The notes under the pieces were generated by a model. That model searched no databases. It saw only the letters and a list, made by a program, of their open reading frames with translations, and was not told the DNA's origin. Of a stretch of 64,000 bases of DNA, positions 50,450 through 64,000 are shown in pieces (the first letter of the stretch is position 1; the number at the start of each line of letters is the position of its first letter). This DNA comes from Stentor roeselii. Its lineage: Eukaryota > Ciliophora > Heterotrichea > Heterotrichida > Stentoridae. The stretch spans positions 35,331 to 99,330 of the forward strand of contig RSEH01000176.1 of assembly GCA_006503475.1 (NCBI GenBank), written 5' to 3'. The position numbers and the translations under genes are program-made.

Positions 50450-51550
50450 TTATTTATTAACACCTTTCTTCCTAAGAGTCATTTGTTTCAACTTCTCGTA
50501 TTCTTCCACTGCCCGACGAGCCTTAAGTTCAGCCATTTTCAACTTTGCATTGATTTTCAACTCATTAAATTTTTTCCTAGCAAGAAATCCTTTCCAGTGA
50601 CTTTGAATCATGACAGCAGCGACTCTTTCTGTTGCTTTATGTTGTTGAAGGTCGATTTTTCGAAGAGCTGAATTGATTGAACTGAAGCTTTTATCAGTTT
50701 TTATTGAAATTTCTTCTTCACTGAAGATTTTAGGGACAAATGGCTTTTGAATCTCGAATTTTTTCATTATTCGAGTCTTGGTTCTTGTCGGGTTTGAAGC
50801 TTTTCGGAAAGAGTCTCGGTCAGTCACTCGGCTTCGGCCTTCTCGGTAAAGACTTTTGCGGCTTTCGTGACTGTTGGCTCTTGACTTTGCGCTTACAATT
50901 GGAAATCTTGATCTGGGAGTTGGGACTTTTACGAAGTAGTCGAAACCGGGAGATCTTGACTTGGTTAGTTGGGAAAGAGCTGTTTTTACTGTTATTGTTA
51001 GAGGGTGTTGGGCACCTAACTGATCCGAACTTAATCGAGTTGCTACTTTTAAACAGTCTTCTGCGTCTTCTGGTTGGTTTAAAAGCTGGTACTCGGTTGA
51101 TACGTTGTGGTATGCGATTACTAGAGTGGGAATGTGCTTTGGTTGGTCTTTTTGGATTGATTTCAGAAGAAAAATTGAACGAAGTCCGTGACGGATGGCC
51201 TTCACATGATCTTTCTGTTGAGAAAGAATAGAGCAAATGTTAAGATGGGCTCCAGCAATAGTAGCAGCTTCATTTGGAAGTTTGTTTTCAAGGTCAATAG
51301 CTTTGAACAAGTACTTAAGAGCTTCTGAATAATTTTTCGTTCTTTTGAAGAGACATCCTAAGTTATTGAAGGTGATGGCCATCAGTTTACTCTTTTGTAT
51401 TTCTTCTGTTATTGACTTGATACCCATCAGAGCTTGCTTTAAATAAGACATTGAGAGCTCGAATTTATCCTGTTGCAGCTGTTCCATAGCTAGTTTGTTG
51501 TAACTTATGACCACTTCTTCCTTTTGCTTGCTATTGAGTCCTCTGGACAT
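50450..51550 (-). CDS. TPR-repeat protein with C-terminal IQ motif
   Basis: 366 residues. Residues ~12-190 form about four TPRs: NKLAMEQLQQDKFELSMSYL, TFNNLGCLFKRTKNYSEALKYL, then similar helices up to LSQL. Residues ~200-290 are basic and Ser-rich. An IQ motif (VMIQSHWKGFLARKKF) at about 310 should bind calmodulin or centrin, followed by a Lys-rich helix. TPR plus IQ suggests a Ca/centrin-linked adaptor; a cortical or ciliary role is inferred. The gene lies 57 bp downstream of the receptor gene's stop (51608). Confidence 0.75.
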   Translation of the reverse strand: MSRGLNSKQKEEVVISYNKLAMEQLQQDKFELSMSYLKQALMGIKSITEEIQKSKLMAITFNNLGCLFKRTKNYSEALKYLFKAIDLENKLPNEAATIAGAHLNICSILSQQKDHVKAIRHGLRSIFLLKSIQKDQPKHIPTLVIAYHNVSTEYQLLNQPEDAEDCLKVATRLSSDQLGAQHPLTITVKTALSQLTKSRSPGFDYFVKVPTPRSRFPIVSAKSRANSHESRKSLYREGRSRVTDRDSFRKASNPTRTKTRIMKKFEIQKPFVPKIFSEEEISIKTDKSFSSINSALRKIDLQQHKATERVAAVMIQSHWKGFLARKKFNELKINAKLKMAELKARRAVEEYEKLKQMTLRKKGVNK

Positions 51551-51607: not shown

Positions 51608-54526
51608 CTACTGATTCTTCATACTATCATAAACATTCGACAATGCTTTTTTAAAAGGAAGTTCATTTCCAAAGGGAATAACCATAGCTCCAATTTTACT
51701 CATCTGTTCCAAAAACTCATCTCCAGTCAGCACTCCTTCCTTAGTCAAAACATAAAGTTTAATTCCATTATCACGAAGCAATACCAAGTCGCTAGCAGCG
51801 CAGCATCCATATCCAGAAAGTTCACAAATAATAATAAGCATAGTTCTTTTCGTATGATCCTGTTCATCTTCAAAATAATTAATCGAATTAATCATCACAT
51901 CATAAATCGACTCCTTTTTTGTATCCTCCTTCGCAGCCAAGATGAGATTTTCAAGGTCTCTATCAGGCATATCACGTGAACAAGCTTTCATTTTAAGTTT
52001 TTGATTCGGGTTTAAAGTAGCAGCGCCGATTTTCCACTTTTTTCTTAGTTTCGCTTCGACGAAGTTGATAAGGTCTTCTGAGAGTTTCTGGTATTGGTAC
52101 AAGTCGTAAGCCATGACAATGACTAAAGAGTTTTCAAGGGTGTTAAGACTGTTGTTCATTTCAACGAGTTCAGGAGTTTCTTTTAATAGTCCAAACTTTT
52201 CTAATAAACTGTGAAGTGACTTGACTGCCAGTTTTCTGATGTTCGGGTCGAAGAACTGTCCTTTTTCCTATGTTTTGCTTACAATCGCGAGGGTGAAGGC
52301 TACAGCGGCTTCATAGTGTTTGTCGTTTTCAAGAAGTAGAAGTCCTCGGCGATAGTACATCATTTGGGAAAGAATGTCTTTTTCATATGTGATGTTTTTC
52401 ACGTCAAAATGCAAGCTTTTGTTGTACTCGTCGTCGATTTTTATGTTGACTCCTATTCGAGATAGTCTTGTTATGTCGATGTCGATTTGAGTACCGCTTT
52501 CGATTTCAAGTTTACGAAGTTCATCATGAACGATGTCTAAAAGTTCGATTCCTGAATGGTAATATTTTAGCTCTTGGAAGACACCTGCGATGTCTATCAT
52601 TACTTTTAATAGTCTTAGATAATGCTTTCTGCTTGATGCGTAGTAGTTTAAAATTTCATGCTGGTAGTTGTAGATGTCTTTTAAACGTGCTCGTACTTCT
52701 GTTAGTTCTAAAGCTGATTCGTGAAGTTCTGCTTGGAGGCCCATGCAGAGCTGTTGTTTTCGGTCTATTATGCTTTCTTGTAAAAATTGCTTTTCACTAT
52801 CCCAGCTTAATGAATCTTTTCCTGCTTTTTTTTGTAGGATGATTTTTTCATTTTCGGTCAAGTTGCGCTCGTCTTCTTCTTGTTGGCTTACTTCTTTCGC
52901 AAGTTCTTCGATTTCATGTAGAGACTCTCTGTAGTAGTTAACGGCTTGACTGTAATCTCTTGTTAAATAGCAGATATTGCCAAGAAGGTTATTAATAATC
53001 GCTTTTCCTCTCCGATTTTTTATTTCAACAAAAAGTTTCAGGGCTTCTTTTAAGTTATTTTCACGAATGGCTAACTTAGGGTTATTAAGAAAGCTGGGTT
53101 CAATCATTCTTTCTAAAGTTTCAAGGAGCCTGAGGTAAGACAAGATTTGATTAACTTCTTTATTGTACCTTCTGTCCATAGCTTGAAGACTGAGCTTGCC
53201 TCGAAGGTACTGTTCAAACAAGTAAATCGGGTGAGTGATTTTGTCAGTGATCGCCATTCCCAAGAACCAAACAGTAGCGATAGTGATGCAGAGAAGGATG
53301 AGGAAGATCACCATTTGTATGATGATAGTATCGATCACTCCATCCAAGACTTGATTCCACTCTTCAAAGACAATTCCTTCATTGATATAACTTCCAACTG
53401 ACATAGTCCCATTTTCTCCAGCTTCAAGTTCAGTTTTCCAAGACTTAAAAAAAACGTCCATTTTTGAAAGGCTTCCGTAAAACTTTGAAAAATAACCGTC
53501 AAGTGAAAAACGTGTCAAATTGAAGTCTTTGTCATCGGTTTTGTCAAAAATGTTCATTGTTTCTTCTTTAAGCACGTCATCTGTGGGGAATAGGGACTCT
53601 GCTATGGACTGGCTACTGACACTTGAAGTGTTTGAAGTTTTTTGACCTTTCTGGAAGGTTCGAATGGTTCTTTTACCGTCGATGGTAGTGAGGAAAAACT
53701 GGTAATCTTCAACGTCTTCAAACAAGTAATCGAAGTAGTCTTCAGGGAGGTAATAAACAAAAGCTCCATTTTCTGAGTTCAAGAAGACTTTTAACTGATC
53801 GTCTTCCGCATAGACTGTGACATTGTGATCGTTATTTTTGAGTTCTAAGTACCCGTCAGTGCATCGAGCGCTGTAGGCTCCTTCAGTTTTACATTCCTTA
53901 TTCTTAGAATCGTATTCGAACTTGCCTTTCTTGATGTCAGTCATATCAACCTGTGGATATCGATAGTCAAGTATTTCATTACTGTCAAGTCCAGGGTAAT
54001 CTGCAAGGATCATCCCTATTTGACGAATATCTCTATCAGTGTCATTGTTCATGACAATTCTCATGAAAATATCAGTCACAGCTGTTTTGTTGATAATTTT
54101 TTGTCCATACTTACTGAAATCAGTGTATTCCTTGTTGTCCGAAAGCCAGACTGACTCTGTCCTGGTCTTCGTGTCTGCTTAAGTCTTACCATTTTTGGCA
54201 TTATACAAGTTCTCAGTTGTAATGAATTTATTTCCATTATCGACTAAAACAATTTCAGAATTAAACATTTCATCTAACATGTTCATTTCAAAGACCATTT
54301 GTTTCAGCTTCGAAGCGATCAGGTCTGAAGAAGCTGTTGAAAGCTTTTCAAGGTTTTCGTATTCGGAGGTCTTGATGTAGTCAGTTGTTTTTCTTATCCA
54401 GCCTAGGTAGGCACTGAAGAGAATTGCGATGATTATTATTGTACAGACCAGAATACCGGATAGCAAAGGGCAGAGAGTTACGATTTGAAGACGCTTGCTG
54501 AGCTTTGGCTGGGTTTCTCCTTCCAT
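51608..54526 (-). CDS. Receptor-like HAMP-TPR-VWA-like protein, copy A, three exons
   Basis: Exons 54526-54190, 54174-52283 and 52267-51608 sum to 2889 nt, 962 residues. TM1 covers about 13-37 (IVTLCPLLSGILVCTIIIIA). An ectodomain of ~370 residues follows. TM2 (QMVIFLILLCITIATVWFLG) is followed by a HAMP-like DKITHPIYLFEQYLRGK segment. TPR-like helices come next (NNLLGNICYLTRDYSQAVNY and others). The C-terminal ~190 residues resemble a VWA fold (NSLVIVMAYDLYQY, TMLIIICELSGYG), but the DxSxS metal site is absent. No output enzyme domain is seen. It is near-identical to the partial gene at 62654-64000 and a distant relative of 18750-21416, sharing the V..xPxxxG pattern in TM1. A sensory receptor role is inferred. 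Confidence 0.8.
52268..52282 (-). other. 15-nt intron 2 of receptor copy A
   Basis: Reads GTAAGCAAAACATAG on the minus strand, with A at position 10. Its removal joins TLAI to EKGQFFDPN, linking the TPR part to the VWA-like end. Confidence 0.9.
53174..54526 (-). repeat. Inverted-duplication arm A (partner 62654-64000)
   Basis: This 1353-bp stretch, read on the minus strand, aligns with 62654-64000 (1347 bp) with one 6-nt length difference. I count about 40 substitutions over the first ~541 bp from the ATG and none over the next 806 bp. The arm continues at least to 53174 and may go on to the gene end at 51608; its true end lies outside what can be compared here. Confidence 0.92.
54175..54189 (-). 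other. 15-nt intron 1 of receptor copy A
   Basis: Reads GTAAGACTTAAGCAG on the minus strand, with A at position 10. The same intron, with one base changed, occurs in copy B. Confidence 0.93.
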
Positions 54527-55862
54527 TTATTTGTTTGAATCAAGAGGTAATGGGAATTAGAAGTTTTTAAGGTGATTGAAGATGAAATAAAAATATTGAT
54601 TTCTAGTAGATTAAAGTGATTAAAACAACAGATTTAAAGAGCTTTGTTTGATGAAAATTTATAGGTTTTATGAAGTATTTGAATCTATTGATATATATTT
54701 CAATCTTAATTTGAAGTTATTTAGAATAAATGATAAACTGATTTAAGAACCTCATTTTCAGTTCAAGGTTTGATTTTGGTATGATTAGCTTAAATTAGAG
54801 CTTCCTGTTCAAAATATGTGAAAGGTTCATAATTTCTTTGATCTTTCAGGTTTTACCACATTGGGATTGTATTAGTAAGTCAGAATACTAAAAATATAGT
54901 TTTGTATCTGTAATTATCTGAAATTAAGATATGATGCAGATATAATTGATATTTAGAATATCAAGTATGAAGCAGATCTTAGAAATTTTTAGTAAAATAA
55001 ATGTATATCATTATAAAGAGATAAAAACAAATGCTTATTATCTGACCGAGAAAAGGCTATTTTAATCTTATTAAAGCTAGCCTTTCCTGTTGAGAAATCA
55101 ATTATTTACTATAAAGAAATTCAAAATAACTTTCATTTGAATAATTAGACAGTTTTTTTTACATGAAAGAGTAAATTTTTAGATGAATTAGTTAAATTAT
55201 TTTTATTAGAAGGTTATATACTATATTAGGAACTAATTCGAAACAAAAAGAGGATTTATCAGGACCAAGAGGAGCGAATTTCAAACCATGAGAGTAAGTT
55301 TTTTTACAAACTTACTGGAGACTCATCACATTATATAAAATATGATTAGATTCGATTATTCATGATGAATTTTTTCTACTGAAAGGCATTAATGACTCTG
55401 ATAATATTAAAATATCAACACTATAAATAGACTTTATTAACAATTAGTATTAAATAATCAGTCTAACTTCCGAAAAAAAGTTAATTATACTGTAAAAATA
55501 AAAATTATTTTACAATATCAAACTCTTATAAGAATCTGATGATAAACAATAACGAAAAAAGTTCTTAAAGTTGGGTATTAATTAACTATGCATATCTGAA
55601 CAAAGCTTGCATCATTATTATAATAATAAATCTGCGGAGTTGGCATAGCCACCCTTAAAAGTCACAAGAAAACAAATATTAAAACAAACTTCTAAATTTT
55701 CAAAGCCCAAAACAAATGCATTGAAAACTCTAAATATCATTAGAAATGAATCACATTTTACCTAATTTCCTATTAATTCTACTTAATCTACTGATGAAAA
55801 ATGCTTCTATTAATTCTAACTCTAATAGTAACTGTTGACATCTGTCAAATATTTTATTATAA
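54527..55862. other. Divergent intergenic region, ~1.34 kb
   Basis: Highly AT-rich region between the receptor copy A start and the sirtuin start. The first ~90 bp next to the receptor resemble the sequence upstream of receptor copy B. A locally GC-richer patch (CTGCGGAGTTGGCATAGCCA) lies near 55632. No gene or tRNA recognised. Confidence 0.45.
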
Positions 55863-57224
55863 ATGCAAACCTGCTACTCTTGCGCTAATACATCATGTTG
55901 CCCAGAGCACTGCTGCGACTGGGATCACTGTCTTTGTAAAGACTGCGAAAACTGCGGAGGTCCACCTTCAGCCATAGTCCCAAAAGTTCAAAACATTCCT
56001 CCATCACCATCACCATCATCTTCGAAAGCTTCAACTAAATCATCTACCTATTCTCCTTCAGTATTCAAAGGGCCGAACAATGAAGATCTTTCAATAGACG
56101 AGTATATAAAAATGCTTGCAGCTGAAAGTCTTCGAAAGCAACGAGAAGAAGAAGCAACACGTCAGGCTATATTTGATGAAAAAAGAAGAAAAGAAAGAGA
56201 AGAATATGAAGAAATTATTGCTTCAACTAAGAAATGTTTGGAAAGAAATCGAGAAGTTTTATCTAGTACTTCGACGACACTTTCTCGACTTCAGAGCACG
56301 ATGGAAGGCATTCGTGACACTGAAAAAAGATTTCAAGAATATAAAGATGCTTTTGGAGAAGTCATGAGAAGAGCTCTTGAAAATGCTTTTGGGTCTGGGG
56401 AAAATGTTGAAGAACTTAAACAGCAGTTTGGAGTACCAAAATTGTCGAATGTTCGTGAAGTTGCTCAAATACTTAAAAATTGCAGAAATATTGCGATTAT
56501 TACTGGAGCTGGTGTTTCTGCTGAAAGTGGAGTGTTTACTTATAAGGATAATGAAGAAAAGTACAATATTGCTGGGGCTAAATTAAAGTTGCAGGAAATT
56601 ATGAATATCAATATCTACGAGTACCATCCACTAGAGTTCTGGCAAAACATCCAATTCAATCGAAAGCGTTTTTCATCCTGCAAGCCAAACTCAGTCCACA
56701 AGTCTCTATTCGACCTAATAATCAACTACGAAAAGAAAGGTCGAAAAGTATCTCTAATAACTCAAAACATCGACGGTTTCGACAAAATCCGTTTAAGCTC
56801 CAATCCAAACTTCTTCGAAATTCACGGAAACACTAACGAAATGAGGTGCAAGTCAGTTTGTTCCCCAGCAGTTCTTCCATGTCCAGAAACAAGCGAAGAG
56901 CTTGTCGAAGTTCCAAAATGCCAGCAATGCAAATCACTGATGCGTCCAAATGTATTGTTGTATGGAGAAAGCTATTCTGAAGAGTATTATCGAGCCAACT
57001 CAGCAGCTGAAGCGTGTAAAGCAGCCGATGCCTTGATAATCATCGGAACTCAAATCAAGTGCGGCTTTCCGGAGTCAAGAGTGAAAGACTTTGGAAAAAC
57101 TGGGAAGCCGATAGTTGAGATTAACATTGATCCTGTTGTTGAGTATGGAAGAGTGTTCGTGCTTAATGGAAGGTGCTCGGAAAGCTTTCCTTTGCTGGTG
57201 GAATTACTTATCAAGATGAAATAA
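55863..57224 (+). CDS. Sirtuin (SIR2-family deacylase) with N-terminal Cys/His cluster
   Basis: 453 residues. Residues 1-33 are packed with Cys/His (CYSCANTSCCPEHCCDWDHC), probably binding two zincs like a B-box. A coiled coil (~80-165) follows. The SIR2 domain (~195-453) has GAGVSAESGVFTYKD (the usual GIPDFRS is altered), SLITQNIDGF, the catalytic His in EIHGNTNEMRC, a Cys-Cys...Cys-Cys zinc module (MRCKSVC, PKCQQCKSLMRPNVLLYGES) and GTQIKCGFPE in place of GTS. Sirtuins use NAD+ to remove acyl groups from proteins. The altered NAD loop makes activity uncertain. The gene's stop abuts the stop of the convergent CLC gene with no bases between. Start context is TTATAAATG. Confidence 0.85.
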   Translation: MQTCYSCANTSCCPEHCCDWDHCLCKDCENCGGPPSAIVPKVQNIPPSPSPSSSKASTKSSTYSPSVFKGPNNEDLSIDEYIKMLAAESLRKQREEEATRQAIFDEKRRKEREEYEEIIASTKKCLERNREVLSSTSTTLSRLQSTMEGIRDTEKRFQEYKDAFGEVMRRALENAFGSGENVEELKQQFGVPKLSNVREVAQILKNCRNIAIITGAGVSAESGVFTYKDNEEKYNIAGAKLKLQEIMNINIYEYHPLEFWQNIQFNRKRFSSCKPNSVHKSLFDLIINYEKKGRKVSLITQNIDGFDKIRLSSNPNFFEIHGNTNEMRCKSVCSPAVLPCPETSEELVEVPKCQQCKSLMRPNVLLYGESYSEEYYRANSAAEACKAADALIIIGTQIKCGFPESRVKDFGKTGKPIVEINIDPVVEYGRVFVLNGRCSESFPLLVELLIKMK

Positions 57225-59309
57225 TTAGTTAGTTCTGGTCTTGCTGAAACTTTCTCGTGAAATCATACCCACCAGCTGCCCTTTCCTTACAACATAAACC
57301 TGGTTGAATCCCAGCATAATAAACAAAAAGTGCACCTTAGCCAAAGGCGTGGATTCATTCACAGCGAACGGCGAGTCTTCTCCTAAAAGAAAATGACTTG
57401 AAAAGTCAATCATTTTACAAAGAAGAACTTTCACTTCTTCACTTTCTCCTTGGGCCATGACCATGCTTTGGTAGGAGTCATCAAGTACACTTGAATAGCT
57501 GTTGCTTGTTAAGAATCCAATATAATTCTTTATTTTTTCTTGCTCCGCTTCTGAGATGTCCTTTGAATGCTCCAGGGCGCAGGCCCTGAAGTAATCTTTA
57601 AGATTTGAAAGCTTCAGGTCGTAGAGCAAGTTGCTCTCTGAGTCTACGACTGGCACTCGGCTGAATGCTGAACCGGCTTCGAGGATACTTTCAGCTACTT
57701 CTTTTAATGTTCCACCTTGCATCAACTGTGGATGAGAATATTCCATCACGTCTCTTGCTGTTAGACTTTGAAGCTTTGATGGCTTTATTGAAGGCAAATA
57801 TGGAAGGCCTTTTATTTCGAGTAATGCGTCGTAGATGGACATGCTGAAGAAGTTACTTACGGAATATGATACTAGCACTGATACTATCATTGGAAGGAAG
57901 TAATGGATTTGACCTGTTATTTCAAAAACAATAACAGTTACAGAAATGGTATGTGTAGTTGCCGAGACCAATGAAGCCGCTCCAACCGCAGCATAAATCC
58001 CGGGATTCGATGTAAAAACAATCATCCCCACAACATTTTCAAAAAGTCTTCCAAAAACCGCTCCAGCAGTCATCAAAGGATACAAGACCCCAGCAGGTAA
58101 AGGACAACTGAGACTAATAAGAGTAAGAAACAGCTTACAAAAGAAAAAAACCGTTAAAGCAAAAGTGACACTAGAAGCATTCCAAGAATTATCCTTAAGA
58201 TCTGAATGCAGCATATCATTGATAACAGTCATATCATTTTTCCTCAAATAAGGCGTGATAAAAGTGACAACCGCACAAATAACGGCAATCAAAAGTGTAT
58301 ATCTATAAGGCCTATAAAGCATAGGATAAGTATTATGTTCCCTCAAACTAATCAACCGACTTGAAACACTAATAAAAGCCGCTCCGAATACCCCAGAAAG
58401 CAGTCCAAGCACGATAAACAACAACAACTCCGGTGAAAGTTCAAAAGCAGGAAAATCAGTCGGTTTAATCATATCAGCGAGACTCGACTCACGGAGCCAA
58501 ATGATTCCTAAAGCGCACCAAATTGAACAAAACGCTGCTCTCCACATATTGCTCACTATATAATACGTCGAAGTCACCTCAATGCTGTAAAGAACTCCGC
58601 CGATTGGACATTGAAAGACTGAAGCCACCCCTGCTGCAACTGCTGAAGCGAGGAACTGATTTCGAAGACTAATGTTCTGAATAAAAATTACGCTTTGGAT
58701 ATGACTGAAAATTCCTAGTTTTGAGATGTGGTGACTGAAAATACCTGAAATATGAACAAATGGACCTTCTTTTCCGATACTCAAACCACCACCGATTCCG
58801 AGGATTATTCCAAAGGCTTTTGTTAGAAGTGTTCGATAACTCATGAATCGCTTTAGCTTTACTCCTGATAGGATTGCTTTCATTTCGGGAATTCCTGAAC
58901 CTTGGGAGTCTTTGCTTAGGAAGGTTGAGAGGAAACATGATAGTTGTGTTAGGATCACGCAGAAGATTATCCAGATTCCGAGGTCCAGGATTGTATTTCC
59001 GGTGTTTGAGGAAATTATTCTTAGGTTTTCTAAGGCTTGAATGGCTACTTCCACAAAAAAACTAAAGATTGAAGTAGCTAATCCTAAAAGTATCAGCGCG
59101 AGAATCACTGTTGGATTCAAAACATGGTGGCTTCTCAGAAAAGCTTTTAAAGAAGACTGATTTTCTGAAGTTGGATCAGATTTTTGATTGACTTCTTCAA
59201 TGTTTGTGATCAAGTCTGTGATAATGAAATTTGCCTTAGCTGGTCTATTTGGGTTCAGCTGGAAAATCGATTCTCGTCGGTGCCGAGCCATAGATGAATA
59301 GACTGACAT
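57225..59309 (-). CDS. CLC-family chloride channel
   Basis: 694 residues. About 80 cytosolic residues precede the membrane domain. Diagnostic motifs are SQGSGIPEMKAIL (selectivity filter with Ser, typical of chloride), GKEGPFVHISGI (gating Glu kept), and PAGVLYPLMTAGAVFGR. After GGVLYSIEVTSTYYIVSNMW, Val sits where proton-coupled antiporters have a Glu; animal channel-type CLCs (CLC-0/1/2) read SIEVTS at this place, so a channel rather than an exchanger is predicted. Two CBS domains close the protein (DVMEYSHPQLMQGG... and ...FAVNESTPLAKVHFLF). It is in the plasma or vacuolar membrane. Its TAA stop begins directly after the sirtuin stop. Confidence 0.92.
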   Translation of the reverse strand: MSVYSSMARHRRESIFQLNPNRPAKANFIITDLITNIEEVNQKSDPTSENQSSLKAFLRSHHVLNPTVILALILLGLATSIFSFFVEVAIQALENLRIISSNTGNTILDLGIWIIFCVILTQLSCFLSTFLSKDSQGSGIPEMKAILSGVKLKRFMSYRTLLTKAFGIILGIGGGLSIGKEGPFVHISGIFSHHISKLGIFSHIQSVIFIQNISLRNQFLASAVAAGVASVFQCPIGGVLYSIEVTSTYYIVSNMWRAAFCSIWCALGIIWLRESSLADMIKPTDFPAFELSPELLLFIVLGLLSGVFGAAFISVSSRLISLREHNTYPMLYRPYRYTLLIAVICAVVTFITPYLRKNDMTVINDMLHSDLKDNSWNASSVTFALTVFFFCKLFLTLISLSCPLPAGVLYPLMTAGAVFGRLFENVVGMIVFTSNPGIYAAVGAASLVSATTHTISVTVIVFEITGQIHYFLPMIVSVLVSYSVSNFFSMSIYDALLEIKGLPYLPSIKPSKLQSLTARDVMEYSHPQLMQGGTLKEVAESILEAGSAFSRVPVVDSESNLLYDLKLSNLKDYFRACALEHSKDISEAEQEKIKNYIGFLTSNSYSSVLDDSYQSMVMAQGESEEVKVLLCKMIDFSSHFLLGEDSPFAVNESTPLAKVHFLFIMLGFNQVYVVRKGQLVGMISRESFSKTRTN

Positions 59310-60453
59310 GATGAAATTAACTATTTAATAATTCTTTTAAGTCTTTGAAATAAAATTAGTTTATTTAATAGTTTGGTTAAGTACCTTTACATTCCAGTTG
59401 AAAGTAAGTAAAACACATGTGATTTATGACTATTGAAATAAGATTCTTATGAATTAAATCGAATGAAAAACAAAGAATTTTTGTATTCAATTTTCTCATG
59501 AAGAGTTAATTTGTATAATCGTCGGAGTTATTGTCATTTGGTCAACTTAAAGTCTCAGAACTTTTCTATAGATTAATGCCATAATTCCTAACATTCACTT
59601 ATCTTAACTTGCGGAGTTATTAATGTTAGATATGTACCAAAAGAATTTTAGTGACAGGGTTAGACTATGAAAATTTTAATAATTTGCTTAAAATAGTTTT
59701 TCTTGTGAAATAGAATGACACTCTTTTTAGTAAAACCTCGAGTCAATTCGATAAGATTTACTATCAATTCTCGAATTTTCTGAAATTTCCTTTATCCTTT
59801 AAGTTAACTTTCAATGCTAACATTTATAAAAATATGGAAGAGTTCATTAATCAAGCCAAGGAATTATTTTAATGACAAATTGAACTCTTCATCCTTTAAG
59901 TCTTCAAGTCTTGATGCTTTGCATTTAAAAATCATTTCTGAAAACAACTTATGAGATATTTAAGATGAGTTAATAATCTTTACATGACAATTTCAAATGC
60001 AGCTTAACTAAATCATAGTTATTGAAGTAGAAAATAACATTGTCTTTAATATTTTTCTTATAACAAGACTTCCTTTTGCAAATAAATTTAAAGTTAAATA
60101 GTTAGTCGTATTTAAGATTGAAAAAATATAGTCTTGACACATTATATAACAATCTTAAGAAGGTAGAAGTTTGAACTATAGTTCAGTACAAATTTCTGTA
60201 TAAAGAAAAATGCAAATCTTCCAATAAGTAACAAGCTTTCACACCTCTATGAAACTTATATAATTAACTATTAATACCAATAATTCCCAAAATTCCTACA
60301 TGAATCTCAACGATAAAATCTAAAAAAATTATAACCTAAGACATCTATAAAAACCAAACTATTTTTATTAAATATCCTAACAATTTAATCATCATCCTAC
60401 ATAAACTACCAAATCTTTCCAAACAACAAGCAAATCTAAATAAACCAAAAAAT
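59310..60453. other. Divergent intergenic region, ~1.14 kb
   Basis: AT-rich region between the CLC and coiled-coil gene starts. On the minus strand, fragments near 59840-60080 read like protein (for example RKSCYKKNIKDNVIFYFNNY and KLFSEMIFKCKASRLEDLKD) but are broken by stops and frame changes. This could be a decayed gene or chance. No start codon or family is seen. Confidence 0.4.
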
Positions 60454-61812
60454 ATGTTAGACTCTTTTAACCTGACAATCCTGAAAGTAGAATGCGAAGA
60501 CCGACGACTCCAGCCGAAATGTCTAGTCTTCGAATCAGGTCAAATCAAAGACGAGATCTCAATGTCATCCCCATCAGTCCACCCAGTTCTAATCTCAAAC
60601 CCAGAACTGAAAATAGAAATTTGCGACCAAGACCTAAGCGTATCTTTCAACTCAAGCATAATCCAAAAGTCAGGCTTCCATTCCCTTCCTTTATTCCCAT
60701 CATCAAATTCAACCGAATTAAAAGAAATCCCTAAACAAGTGCAAGTCCCTCGCATTCTAATCAACGTTTACCCGAAACTCTTATCTCCCAGCTTCGAAAT
60801 AACTGAAAGTTCTGAAGGTCTTGAAGAAGTCTCTGAAAATTCTCCTGTTGAAGACATTTCGAAGGTCATAATGAAAAATTTTGAATTAACAGCCAAGGTC
60901 TTAGAACTTGAAAAGTCTTTAAAGATGAAAGAAGAGAAATTTTTTAAAGAAATCGAGGAAATTACTATGAAGTATAAGGAAAAAGTCAGGGGTTTAAGTG
61001 AGGAAATAGAAAAATTAACTGTCATTCAAGCTAAGAATTTGAAAATTTCAGCGGAAATTAAAAAGGAAAATGAAAACTTGAAGAAGAAAATTGAGGAAAG
61101 TAATGTGGAGAGGGAGGAGGTTGAGGAAAAACTGGAGAAATTTAATAAGGTGAATGAAGAGTCTAGGATCAGGGAAGAATCGATTTTAATGATTTTGAAA
61201 ATTAAGGATAAGGAGATCATGAGACTGAAAAAACAGGGAATTTCAGGGAATTTAAAAATTCAGAAGCAAGAATCTCTTCATTTCAACAAAATCTTGCTAT
61301 CTGGTGAAAATCAAGGAAAATCTGCAAGAGATGTACATGAAATATTAAACTATAACAAAGAAAAACTTGATTTTTTGATAAGTCTTGATAAAAAAGTCAC
61401 TCAACTCACTCATTCACTTGGGCTTGATGGAATTCTTGTCTTGACTGACGAACTTTCTTATTCGATTGGAAGCAAAAAGGTGAACGTCTTAGTAAAAAAA
61501 GGACAAATTTACATTCGCTTCGGAACTTGTCTTAAACCTATCGAAACTTTTCTTATTAATAACTGTGCACAAGAAGTCCAGCAATTCAAAATTCTTAGAA
61601 AAAAATCTGACCTTAGGACTGTTCATAAAAAATCACTTTCTGAGCTGGAAAAGATTGAAAACTCTTCGATTTGCAAGACTTTTGATGATGAATTTCGCAA
61701 AAAACTTCTTACTATACAAACTAGTCGAAGTTCAGTTCCTCGATCAAGGAACTCGTTTTCGCCGATGTCACAAGTTCTAACTGCTCGAAATTTGAATATT
61801 TTTAACTCTTAA
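60454..61812 (+). CDS. Coiled-coil protein with possible C-terminal GAR-like segment
   Basis: 452 residues. Residues 1-110 are beta-like with hydrophobic strands (LTILKVECEDRRLQ, ELKIEICDQDLSVSF), possibly C2-like. A coiled coil spans ~140-265. Near 340-375, NVLVKKGQIYIRFGTCLKPI followed by ETFLINNC has the K-x-G-x-x-x-V/I-R-x-G pattern seen in GAS2-related (GAR) microtubule-binding domains and in many protist proteins. This part is tentative. The C-terminus is Ser/Arg-rich. A cytoskeletal role is inferred. Its start at 60454 lacks a TATAA but has an A-rich context. Confidence 0.65.
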   Translation: MLDSFNLTILKVECEDRRLQPKCLVFESGQIKDEISMSSPSVHPVLISNPELKIEICDQDLSVSFNSSIIQKSGFHSLPLFPSSNSTELKEIPKQVQVPRILINVYPKLLSPSFEITESSEGLEEVSENSPVEDISKVIMKNFELTAKVLELEKSLKMKEEKFFKEIEEITMKYKEKVRGLSEEIEKLTVIQAKNLKISAEIKKENENLKKKIEESNVEREEVEEKLEKFNKVNEESRIREESILMILKIKDKEIMRLKKQGISGNLKIQKQESLHFNKILLSGENQGKSARDVHEILNYNKEKLDFLISLDKKVTQLTHSLGLDGILVLTDELSYSIGSKKVNVLVKKGQIYIRFGTCLKPIETFLINNCAQEVQQFKILRKKSDLRTVHKKSLSELEKIENSSICKTFDDEFRKKLLTIQTSRSSVPRSRNSFSPMSQVLTARNLNIFNS

Positions 61813-62653
61813 TGGAAATAGGAATTTTTAAGTCATTTTAAGGTTTTTCACGTTTGATAATACTAGGATAATTGAATAAGGAACAACACCGAAGTTCAAA
61901 TCACTCACAAATTTAAACATTTATAGTATTCGTATGACCACTAAGTAGACTATTTTTCTTTCTAGTATACTTTTCATTAGTTCCCTATTCCTATTGCGAT
62001 ATTTATACAGCACTTGCAATAATATATTTTTTCTCATAAAGAAATAGTATAATTCTTCCCACTGTAAAAGAAACAATTCTCAAAAGAAGGATCCTTTGAA
62101 TTATAAAATTTATTTACCCTGAGCTATATAGTTAATAATTGATTTTCTTAAGTCTGTAATGATAATTAATTAAAATATCTTCCTTGATGCAAAGATCTCA
62201 TATATTACTTATACTTTATATTCTAAATAGTTTATAATTTCTACACAATATGGATACTGAGTTACGTTTATGCTATTTCTCTTATATAAGCACTAAAAAT
62301 CTAATTTACTAATAATCCCCAAACATCATAATCCCGAAAACATCAAATAATGCTACACCTAATTCACATCTTTTAAAAAGTAGATTTTAATTATCGCTGA
62401 TAGTATTCAAAATTAAAGACCTAGAACTTGTAATAAGGTTCTTTAAATATATTTTGACATTCTTTATACGAAAAACTTCAAATTATTTAAATAAGATTCC
62501 AATCATATACAAAACATTTAAAATTTCATAAAAACTAAAGACTATCAAATCCTGTATATCTAAAACTTTAACATACTATCTTCATCTTCTAAAAATCTTA
62601 AAAAAGCCAATTACTCTAATTTCCCATTAAAACCTTCAATTCAAAACTTATAA
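61813..62653. other. Tandem intergenic region, 841 bp
   Basis: AT-rich sequence upstream of receptor copy B. The last ~90 bp resemble the sequence upstream of copy A (for example CTCTAATTTCCCATTAAAAC and then TTCAATTCAAA). Otherwise no feature recognised. Confidence 0.45.
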
Positions 62654-64000
62654 ATGGAAGGAGAAACCCAGCCAAAGCTAAGCAAGCGTCTTCAAATCGT
62701 AACTCTCTGCCCTTTACTATCCGGTATTCTGATCTGCACAATAATAATCATCGCGATTCTCTTCAGTAACTACCTCGACTGGATAAAAAAAACAACTGAC
62801 TTTATCAAGAACTCTGAATACGAAAACCTTGAAAAGCTTTCAACAGCTTCTTCAGACCTGATCGCTTCGAAGCTGAAACAAATGGTCTTTGAAATGAACA
62901 TGTTAGATGAAATGTTTAATTCTCAAATTGATTTAGTCGATAATGGAAATAAATTCATTACAACTGAGAACTTGTATAATGCCAACGTTGGTAAGACTTA
63001 GGCAGACAAGGAGGACAGGAAAAAGTCAGTCTGGCTTTCGGACAACAAGAAATACACTGATTTCAATGAATATGGGCAAAAAATCATCAACAAAACAGCT
63101 GTGACTGATATTTTCATGAGAACTTTCATGGACACTGACAGGAATATTCGCCAAATAGGAATGATCCTTGCAGATTACCCTGGACTTGACAGTGATGAAA
63201 TACTTGACTATCGATATCCACAGGTTGATATGACTGACATCAAGAAAGGCAAGTTCGAATACGATTCTAAGAATAAGGAATGTAAAACTGAAGGAGCCTA
63301 CAGCGCTCGATGCACTGACGGGTACTTAGAACTCAAAAATAACGATCACAATGTCACAGTCTATGCGGAAGACGATCAGTTAAAAGTCTTCTTGAACTCA
63401 GAAAATGGAGCTTTTGTTTATTACCTCCCTGAAGACTACTTCGATTACTTGTTTGAAGACGTTGAAGATTACCAGTTTTTCCTCACTACCATCGACGGTA
63501 AAAGAACCATTCGAACCTTCCAGAAAGGTCAAAAAACTTCAAACACTTCAAGTGTCAGTAGCCAGTCCATAGCAGAGTCCCTATTCCCCACAGATGACGT
63601 GCTTAAAGAAGAAACAATGAACATTTTTGACAAAACCGATGACAAAGACTTCAATTTGACACGTTTTTCACTTGACGGTTATTTTTCAAAGTTTTACGGA
63701 AGCCTTTCAAAAATGGACGTTTTTTTTAAGTCTTGGAAAACTGAACTTGAAGCTGGAGAAAATGGGACTATGTCAGTTGGAAGTTATATCAATGAAGGAA
63801 TTGTCTTTGAAGAGTGGAATCAAGTCTTGGATGGAGTGATCGATACTATCATCATACAAATGGTGATCTTCCTCATCCTTCTCTGCATCACTATCGCTAC
63901 TGTTTGGTTCTTGGGAATGGCGATCACTGACAAAATCACTCACCCGATTTACTTGTTTGAACAGTACCTTCGAGGCAAGCTCAGTCTTCAAGCTATGGAC
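62654..64000 (+). CDS. Receptor-like HAMP-TPR-VWA-like protein, copy B, cut by window edge
   Basis: Open from ATG at 62654 (context TTATAAATGG) to the right edge, with a 15-nt intron at 62991-63005. The visible part holds TM1 (IVTLCPLLSGILICTIIIIA), the ectodomain, TM2 (QMVIFLILLCITIATVWFLG) and the start of the HAMP-like segment. It is the same protein as the gene at 54526-51608, with about 10 amino-acid differences before the intron, several after it, and a 2-residue deletion (NN in MNNDTD). After base 63194 it is identical to copy A to the edge. No stop or frame shift is seen, so it is probably functional. TPR and VWA-like parts should lie beyond the window. Confidence 0.85.
62654..64000 (+). 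repeat. Inverted-duplication arm B (partner 53174-54526)
   Basis: See arm A. The two arms face each other head-to-head across an 8.1-kb spacer (54527-62653) holding the sirtuin, CLC and coiled-coil genes. Weaker similarity extends ~90 bp upstream of each ATG. Confidence 0.92.
62991..63005 (+). other. 15-nt intron 1 of receptor copy B
   Basis: Reads GTAAGACTTAGGCAG, one base different from the copy A intron, with A at position 10 kept. Confidence 0.93.

Follow-up and report, generated by a model that had tools for sequence, protein, structure and literature searches.

Gene conversion between paralogues irrespective of their orientation has been described in C. elegans for the hsp16 modules and for an adjacent inverted hsp70 pair (PMC3966223). 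Among ciliates, Stentor coeruleus has introns of 15-16 nt and the standard code (PMC9505925), and Blepharisma has telomeres of the sequence CCCTAACA (PMC9942806). The locus analysed here lies in a 64,000-nt stretch of DNA (hereafter the window; C89:35331-99330) within a 44.4-Mb assembly of 522 contigs, which was searched, and holds two inverted genes, A and B, whose 5' ends face each other across 8.1 kb. Tiny 15-nt introns with in-frame stops, the use of TAA or TAG but never TGA as stops inside the A and B frames, and TGTTAGGG repeats, present in 3 of the 15 right ends of contigs analysed as 200-nt pieces, together appear to fit a heterotrich ciliate. We find that A and B share a tract of complete identity enclosed by diverged sequence, and we consider it likely that they are an old inverted duplicate homogenised patchwise by interlocus gene conversion, with the 806-nt tract as the newest patch.

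Results

Layout of genes A and B

The two copies and their parts are listed in Table 1. With its continuation on contig C81 included, B encodes 974 aa, against 962 aa for A. Because hydrophobic peaks lie at aa 18-36 and 396-414 of copy A, the product is predicted to be a two-TM protein with an outer domain of ~360 aa and a long inner part carrying TPR-like repeats. Pfam searches with A return weak TPR matches below cut-off; across exon pieces of six family members TPR models recur and other models match weakly, in one or two members. Profile matches in the PDB are to TPR proteins, mostly designed, or are weak, and single-sequence structure predictions of two pieces, made without an alignment, were poor (pLDDT 36-38). 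Neither Pfam nor PDB profiles recognise an extracellular sensing domain of a known receptor family, so the label 'receptor' in the original prediction amounts to a guess from the putative two-TM/TPR layout. The first intron sits at codon ~77 in the paralogue on contig C103 and at codon ~113 in A and B, a difference that points to tiny introns being gained, lost or moved within this predicted two-TM gene family.

Table 1. Features of the inverted gene pair (window positions)
Feature	Position	Strand	Remarks
Copy A, predicted two-TM membrane protein gene	51608..54526	-	962 aa once two 15-nt introns are removed
Copy A, intron 1	54175..54189	-	15 nt, in-frame stop; removal opens the frame
Copy A, intron 2	52268..52282	-	15 nt, in-frame stop; removal opens the frame
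Copy A, 5' diverged part	53980..54526	-	Predicted TM1 and outer ectodomain, about codons 1-181
Copy A, identical tract	53174..53979	-	806 nt; predicted remaining ectodomain, TM2 and juxtamembrane region
Copy A, 3' part	51608..53173	-	TPR-like region, C-terminal domain; diverged from gene B as continued on C81
Copy B, 5' half	62654..64000	+	To about codon 446 of A; truncated at the end of C89
Copy B, intron 1	62991..63005	+	15 nt; one base unlike copy A intron 1
Copy B, identical tract	63195..64000	+	Alignment with copy A
Terminal overlap with the end of C81	63924..64000	+	77 nt, exact
Upstream flank of A	54604..54884	.	Homologous to the B flank; strongly diverged, with indels
Upstream flank of B	62300..62578	.	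Homologous to the A flank

A tract of complete identity bounded on both sides

We aligned A, read leftward from 54526, with B, read rightward from 62654, beginning 400 nt upstream of the ATG. Between the ATG and position 63194 (541 nt in B, 547 nt in A) the alignment contains 40 substitutions, one of them in the 15-nt intron, and a single 6-nt indel, which is exactly the original prediction of about 40 differences, one intron base among them, plus a 6-nt indel. Thereafter 63195-64000 is the reverse complement of 53174-53979 at every letter for 806 nt, about codons 182-446, taking in most of the ectodomain plus TM2. This identity had been said to run to the window edge, and it does; the edge is also the end of contig C89 (99,330 nt), and the tract stops there. 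The last 77 nt of C89 recur without mismatch at the end of contig C81 as a terminal overlap, and the first base past the overlap already differs between A and B. C81 carries gene B onward with 84% nucleotide identity to A over 1,729 aligned columns including the overlap, and its protein matches A residues 422-961 at 81%, so that C81 supplies the 3' half that gene B lacks on C89. Once C81 is added, diverged sequence lies on both sides of the tract, the pattern sought for gene conversion. The 3' boundary is taken from C81, whose link to B is drawn from the 77-nt overlap and the continuity of the gene.

Divergence along the pair

Only codons that specify one and the same residue in the two copies and are able to vary silently entered the count of silent differences. 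By this measure A and B differ at 12 of 147 sites in the 5' part, 0 of 254 in the tract and 79 of 403 in the 3' part, and the 5' and 3' parts also differ from each other (Fisher p = 0.001). The longest silent-identical run covers 268 codons, whereas none of 20,000 shuffles of the 804 sites gave a run longer than 114; the 806-nt identity is therefore not due to chance. A change-point search yields five segments: codons 2-166 (12/134 silent differences), 168-458 (1/279), 459-519 (8/56), 520-620 (31/73) and 621-961 (39/262), the splits at codons 520 and 621 being weaker (5/500 and 2/500 shuffles). Downstream in B, where the original prediction proposed to look for further conversion tracts, silent divergence varies across the last three segments; taken by itself, the 3' part has no unusual silent-identical run, its longest being reached in 5,153 of 20,000 shuffles. 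NG86 gives dN = 0.061 and dS = 0.140 for the 179 codons of the 5' part, zero for both over the 264 codons of the tract, and dN = 0.107 with dS = 0.425 for the 517 codons of the 3' part.

The most diverged part of the proteins is the 3' part, with 80% amino-acid identity between A and B as against 88% in the 5' part. This runs counter to the idea that the sensing end diversifies while the rest is homogenised, as does the position of the tract, which is itself most of the ectodomain together with TM2. The upstream flanks are homologous (local alignment score 90, versus at most 42 in 300 shuffles) with 54-63 identical columns per 100 from about -346 to -46. The figure of about 7 percent is not the divergence from which the pair started, as the upstream DNA and codons 520-620 are far more diverged than that.

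The 5' part has a dN/dS of 0.43 by NG86 and 0.67 by YN00, and 22 of its 34 changed codons alter the residue. The earlier remark that most coding changes there alter amino acids is correct as a count; the proportion (65%) is nevertheless below the ~73-78% that random change would give, and neither dN/dS nor the codon counts show an overall excess of amino-acid-changing differences. Positive selection over the whole 5' part is therefore unsupported. One cluster, at codons 55-135 (window 54107-54364 and 62816-63073), contains 12 codons at which A and B encode different amino acids and none at which they differ silently (Fisher p = 0.002 in comparison with the remainder of the 5' part, for a region chosen post hoc). 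The same codons form a silent-identical run of 64 sites, a length reached in 6 of 20,000 shuffles, and the cluster could stem from selection acting locally, from an earlier conversion patch or from chance.

Paralogues and neighbouring genes

The genome holds at least seven loci of this family (9 matches). The next closest relative, on C103, shares 45% amino-acid identity with A in the tract and 46% in the 3' part; a further member, on C171, shares 21% and 37%, respectively. Between A and the C103 paralogue, silent differences affect 55/110 codons of the tract, compared with 40/82 for the 5' part and 127/225 for the 3' part. The tract thus resembles its flanks and is under no special nucleotide constraint that would account for the silent identity of A and B.

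Confusion of alleles with paralogues was rejected, since one contig carries both genes, separated by unique DNA, and their 3' sides differ. A is followed by a TPR/IQ gene, which has no match at E 0.001 in the 7,469 nt analysed from C81; these contain a sirtuin relative instead. A third gene copy as the source of C81 finds no support among the best-scoring matches listed, which consist of A, B, the 77-nt end of C81 and three weakly matching pieces of C103.

Between the two genes, the 8.1-kb spacer contains a gene with a Sir2 domain, one with a voltage-gated chloride channel (CLC) domain and one without a Pfam match. A three-gene block with members at 50453-51550, 51608-54526 and 60457-61809 of the window recurs at C103:38000-45000, where the homologues lie side by side, and is an old paralogous block; tblastn identities are 36% for the gene without a Pfam match, 45% for the two-TM gene and 50% for the TPR/IQ gene. 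The sirtuin-like gene within C81:100000-107468 is 41% identical to the window sirtuin at 55863-57224, and it lies close to the B gene on the opposite strand.

The contig end and the assembly graph

An exact 77-nt terminal overlap also joins the right end of C6 to the left end of C149, the one case among 19 further ends sampled (10 left, 9 right); the remaining 18 have no such overlap. Since exact overlaps of this length occur both at C89/C81 and at C6/C149, the assembly is likely a k=77 de Bruijn graph assembly. On that reading the tract is probably one graph edge that the assembler output twice, in which case the assembly could have erased isolated mismatches between the copies, and the real identity of the tract may be below 100%. 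The shared stretch is far longer than k and would not be fully resolvable, which fits the stop of C89 at the far end of the tract with a 77-nt overlap into C81; the two contigs are probably neighbours, and the pairing of 5' ends with 3' ends depends on the path taken by the assembler. A and B share only two blocks of at least 77 nt, of 108 and 806 nt, and the 271 nt of B between these blocks carries 26 substitutions and a 6-nt gap relative to A. The assembler retained both versions of this diverged stretch as separate paths and so left A and B unmerged at this place.

Several sampled contig ends resemble diverged repeats or other ends. The left end of C103 is 87% alike to the right end of C87 over 394 nt, and the left ends of C82 and C51 are identical for their first 172 nt and remain 89% alike over about 600 nt.

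Discussion

We propose that an ancient duplication gave rise to the inverted pair, and that ectopic (interlocus) conversion, in which one copy is repaired from the other, would have homogenised parts of it on separate occasions. About 0.8 kb, codons ~168-458 as judged by silent sites, would belong to the most recent event or events, and the 5' part would be a moderately young patch, perhaps one of others, against a background of strong divergence that would persist in the upstream DNA and codons 520-620. Because that background is far more diverged than the 5' part, the latter was probably converted as well, at an earlier time; the lower silent divergence there could in part be regional rate variation, and the non-coding divergence of the flanks and the silent divergence of codons are different measures. 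Conversion as the mechanism, its recency and the older 5' events are what we infer from this pattern, and the finding of a second boundary together with the paralogue control strengthens the original view that a gene-conversion tract is the best explanation.

The alternative most closely tied to the contig end is that the copies truly differ within the tract and that a short-read graph assembler merged them up to that point. The identity does stop exactly where the contig does, with a 77-nt terminal overlap, and the overlap between C6 and C149 likewise indicates a k=77 graph. In 2,000 simulations per divergence level over 2,896 nt, the median longest shared run was 77, 53 and 39 nt at 7, 10.7 and 15% divergence, so that a shared 77-nt run is not rare at 7% and single merging anchors are possible. 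The maxima, however, were 263, 179, 137 and 78 nt at 5, 7, 10.7 and 15%, far below 806 nt, and an artefact would therefore need many merged pieces. The 271 diverged nucleotides between the 108- and 806-nt blocks stayed unmerged, and at either end of the tract the contigs lead into the variants specific to each copy. It is simpler to suppose that the tract is real and nearly identical, and we regard an assembly artefact as unlikely. A recombination between the arms, which would leave the 8.1-kb spacer in both orientations and swap the 5' ends between the 3' ends, would agree with long inverted arms 8.1-9.1 kb apart and with a contig that ends at the B-side exit of the tract, and short reads should, by our reasoning, give the same junctions for both orientations. 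Yet in the orientation given by the assembly A and the gene at 60457-61809 are transcribed away from each other, as are their C103 homologues, which mildly favours one ancestral orientation, and this inversion seems to us improbable. We are more doubtful still that repeated conversion keeps the arms similar enough for the 8.1-kb spacer to flip in a polyploid somatic nucleus; if true, the two cytosolic halves, each with its own neighbours, would exchange the N-terminal halves (TM1 and outer ectodomain).

The remaining accounts dispense with conversion altogether. Had the pair arisen by a very recent duplication whose ends then diversified fast, the upstream and 3' regions would be more diverged than the middle, as they are; the ends, however, differ at silent and non-coding sites and by indels, and such a history would demand divergence outside the tract and zero inside, which the silent-site pattern contradicts, making it very improbable. 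Selection at the nucleotide level, through an overlapping gene or RNA structure that preserves the tract, is scarcely credible: the C103 paralogue, which in the tract has 55/110 silent differences and is 45% identical in amino acids, is about as diverged there as in the flanks, and contradicts such a constraint. Patchwise interlocus conversion is of a kind already known and is an ordinary mechanism; what the locus would offer is a clean, checkable example of it in an old inverted gene pair of a ciliate-like genome. The adjacency of C89 and C81 matters to users of this assembly, and the locus carries a warning that sudden perfect identity reaching a contig end is first of all an assembly feature.

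In that respect the locus resembles described graph-assembly behaviour, in which a contig ends where a shared stretch ends and continues into the next contig by an overlap of fixed length, with the difference that the assembler here is deduced from two exact 77-nt terminal overlaps. As to the genes themselves, A and B resemble the C. elegans hsp16 modules and inverted hsp70 pair (PMC3966223) in their inverted orientation and close spacing, and differ from them in belonging to a ciliate-like genome and in having a tract known from the assembly alone.
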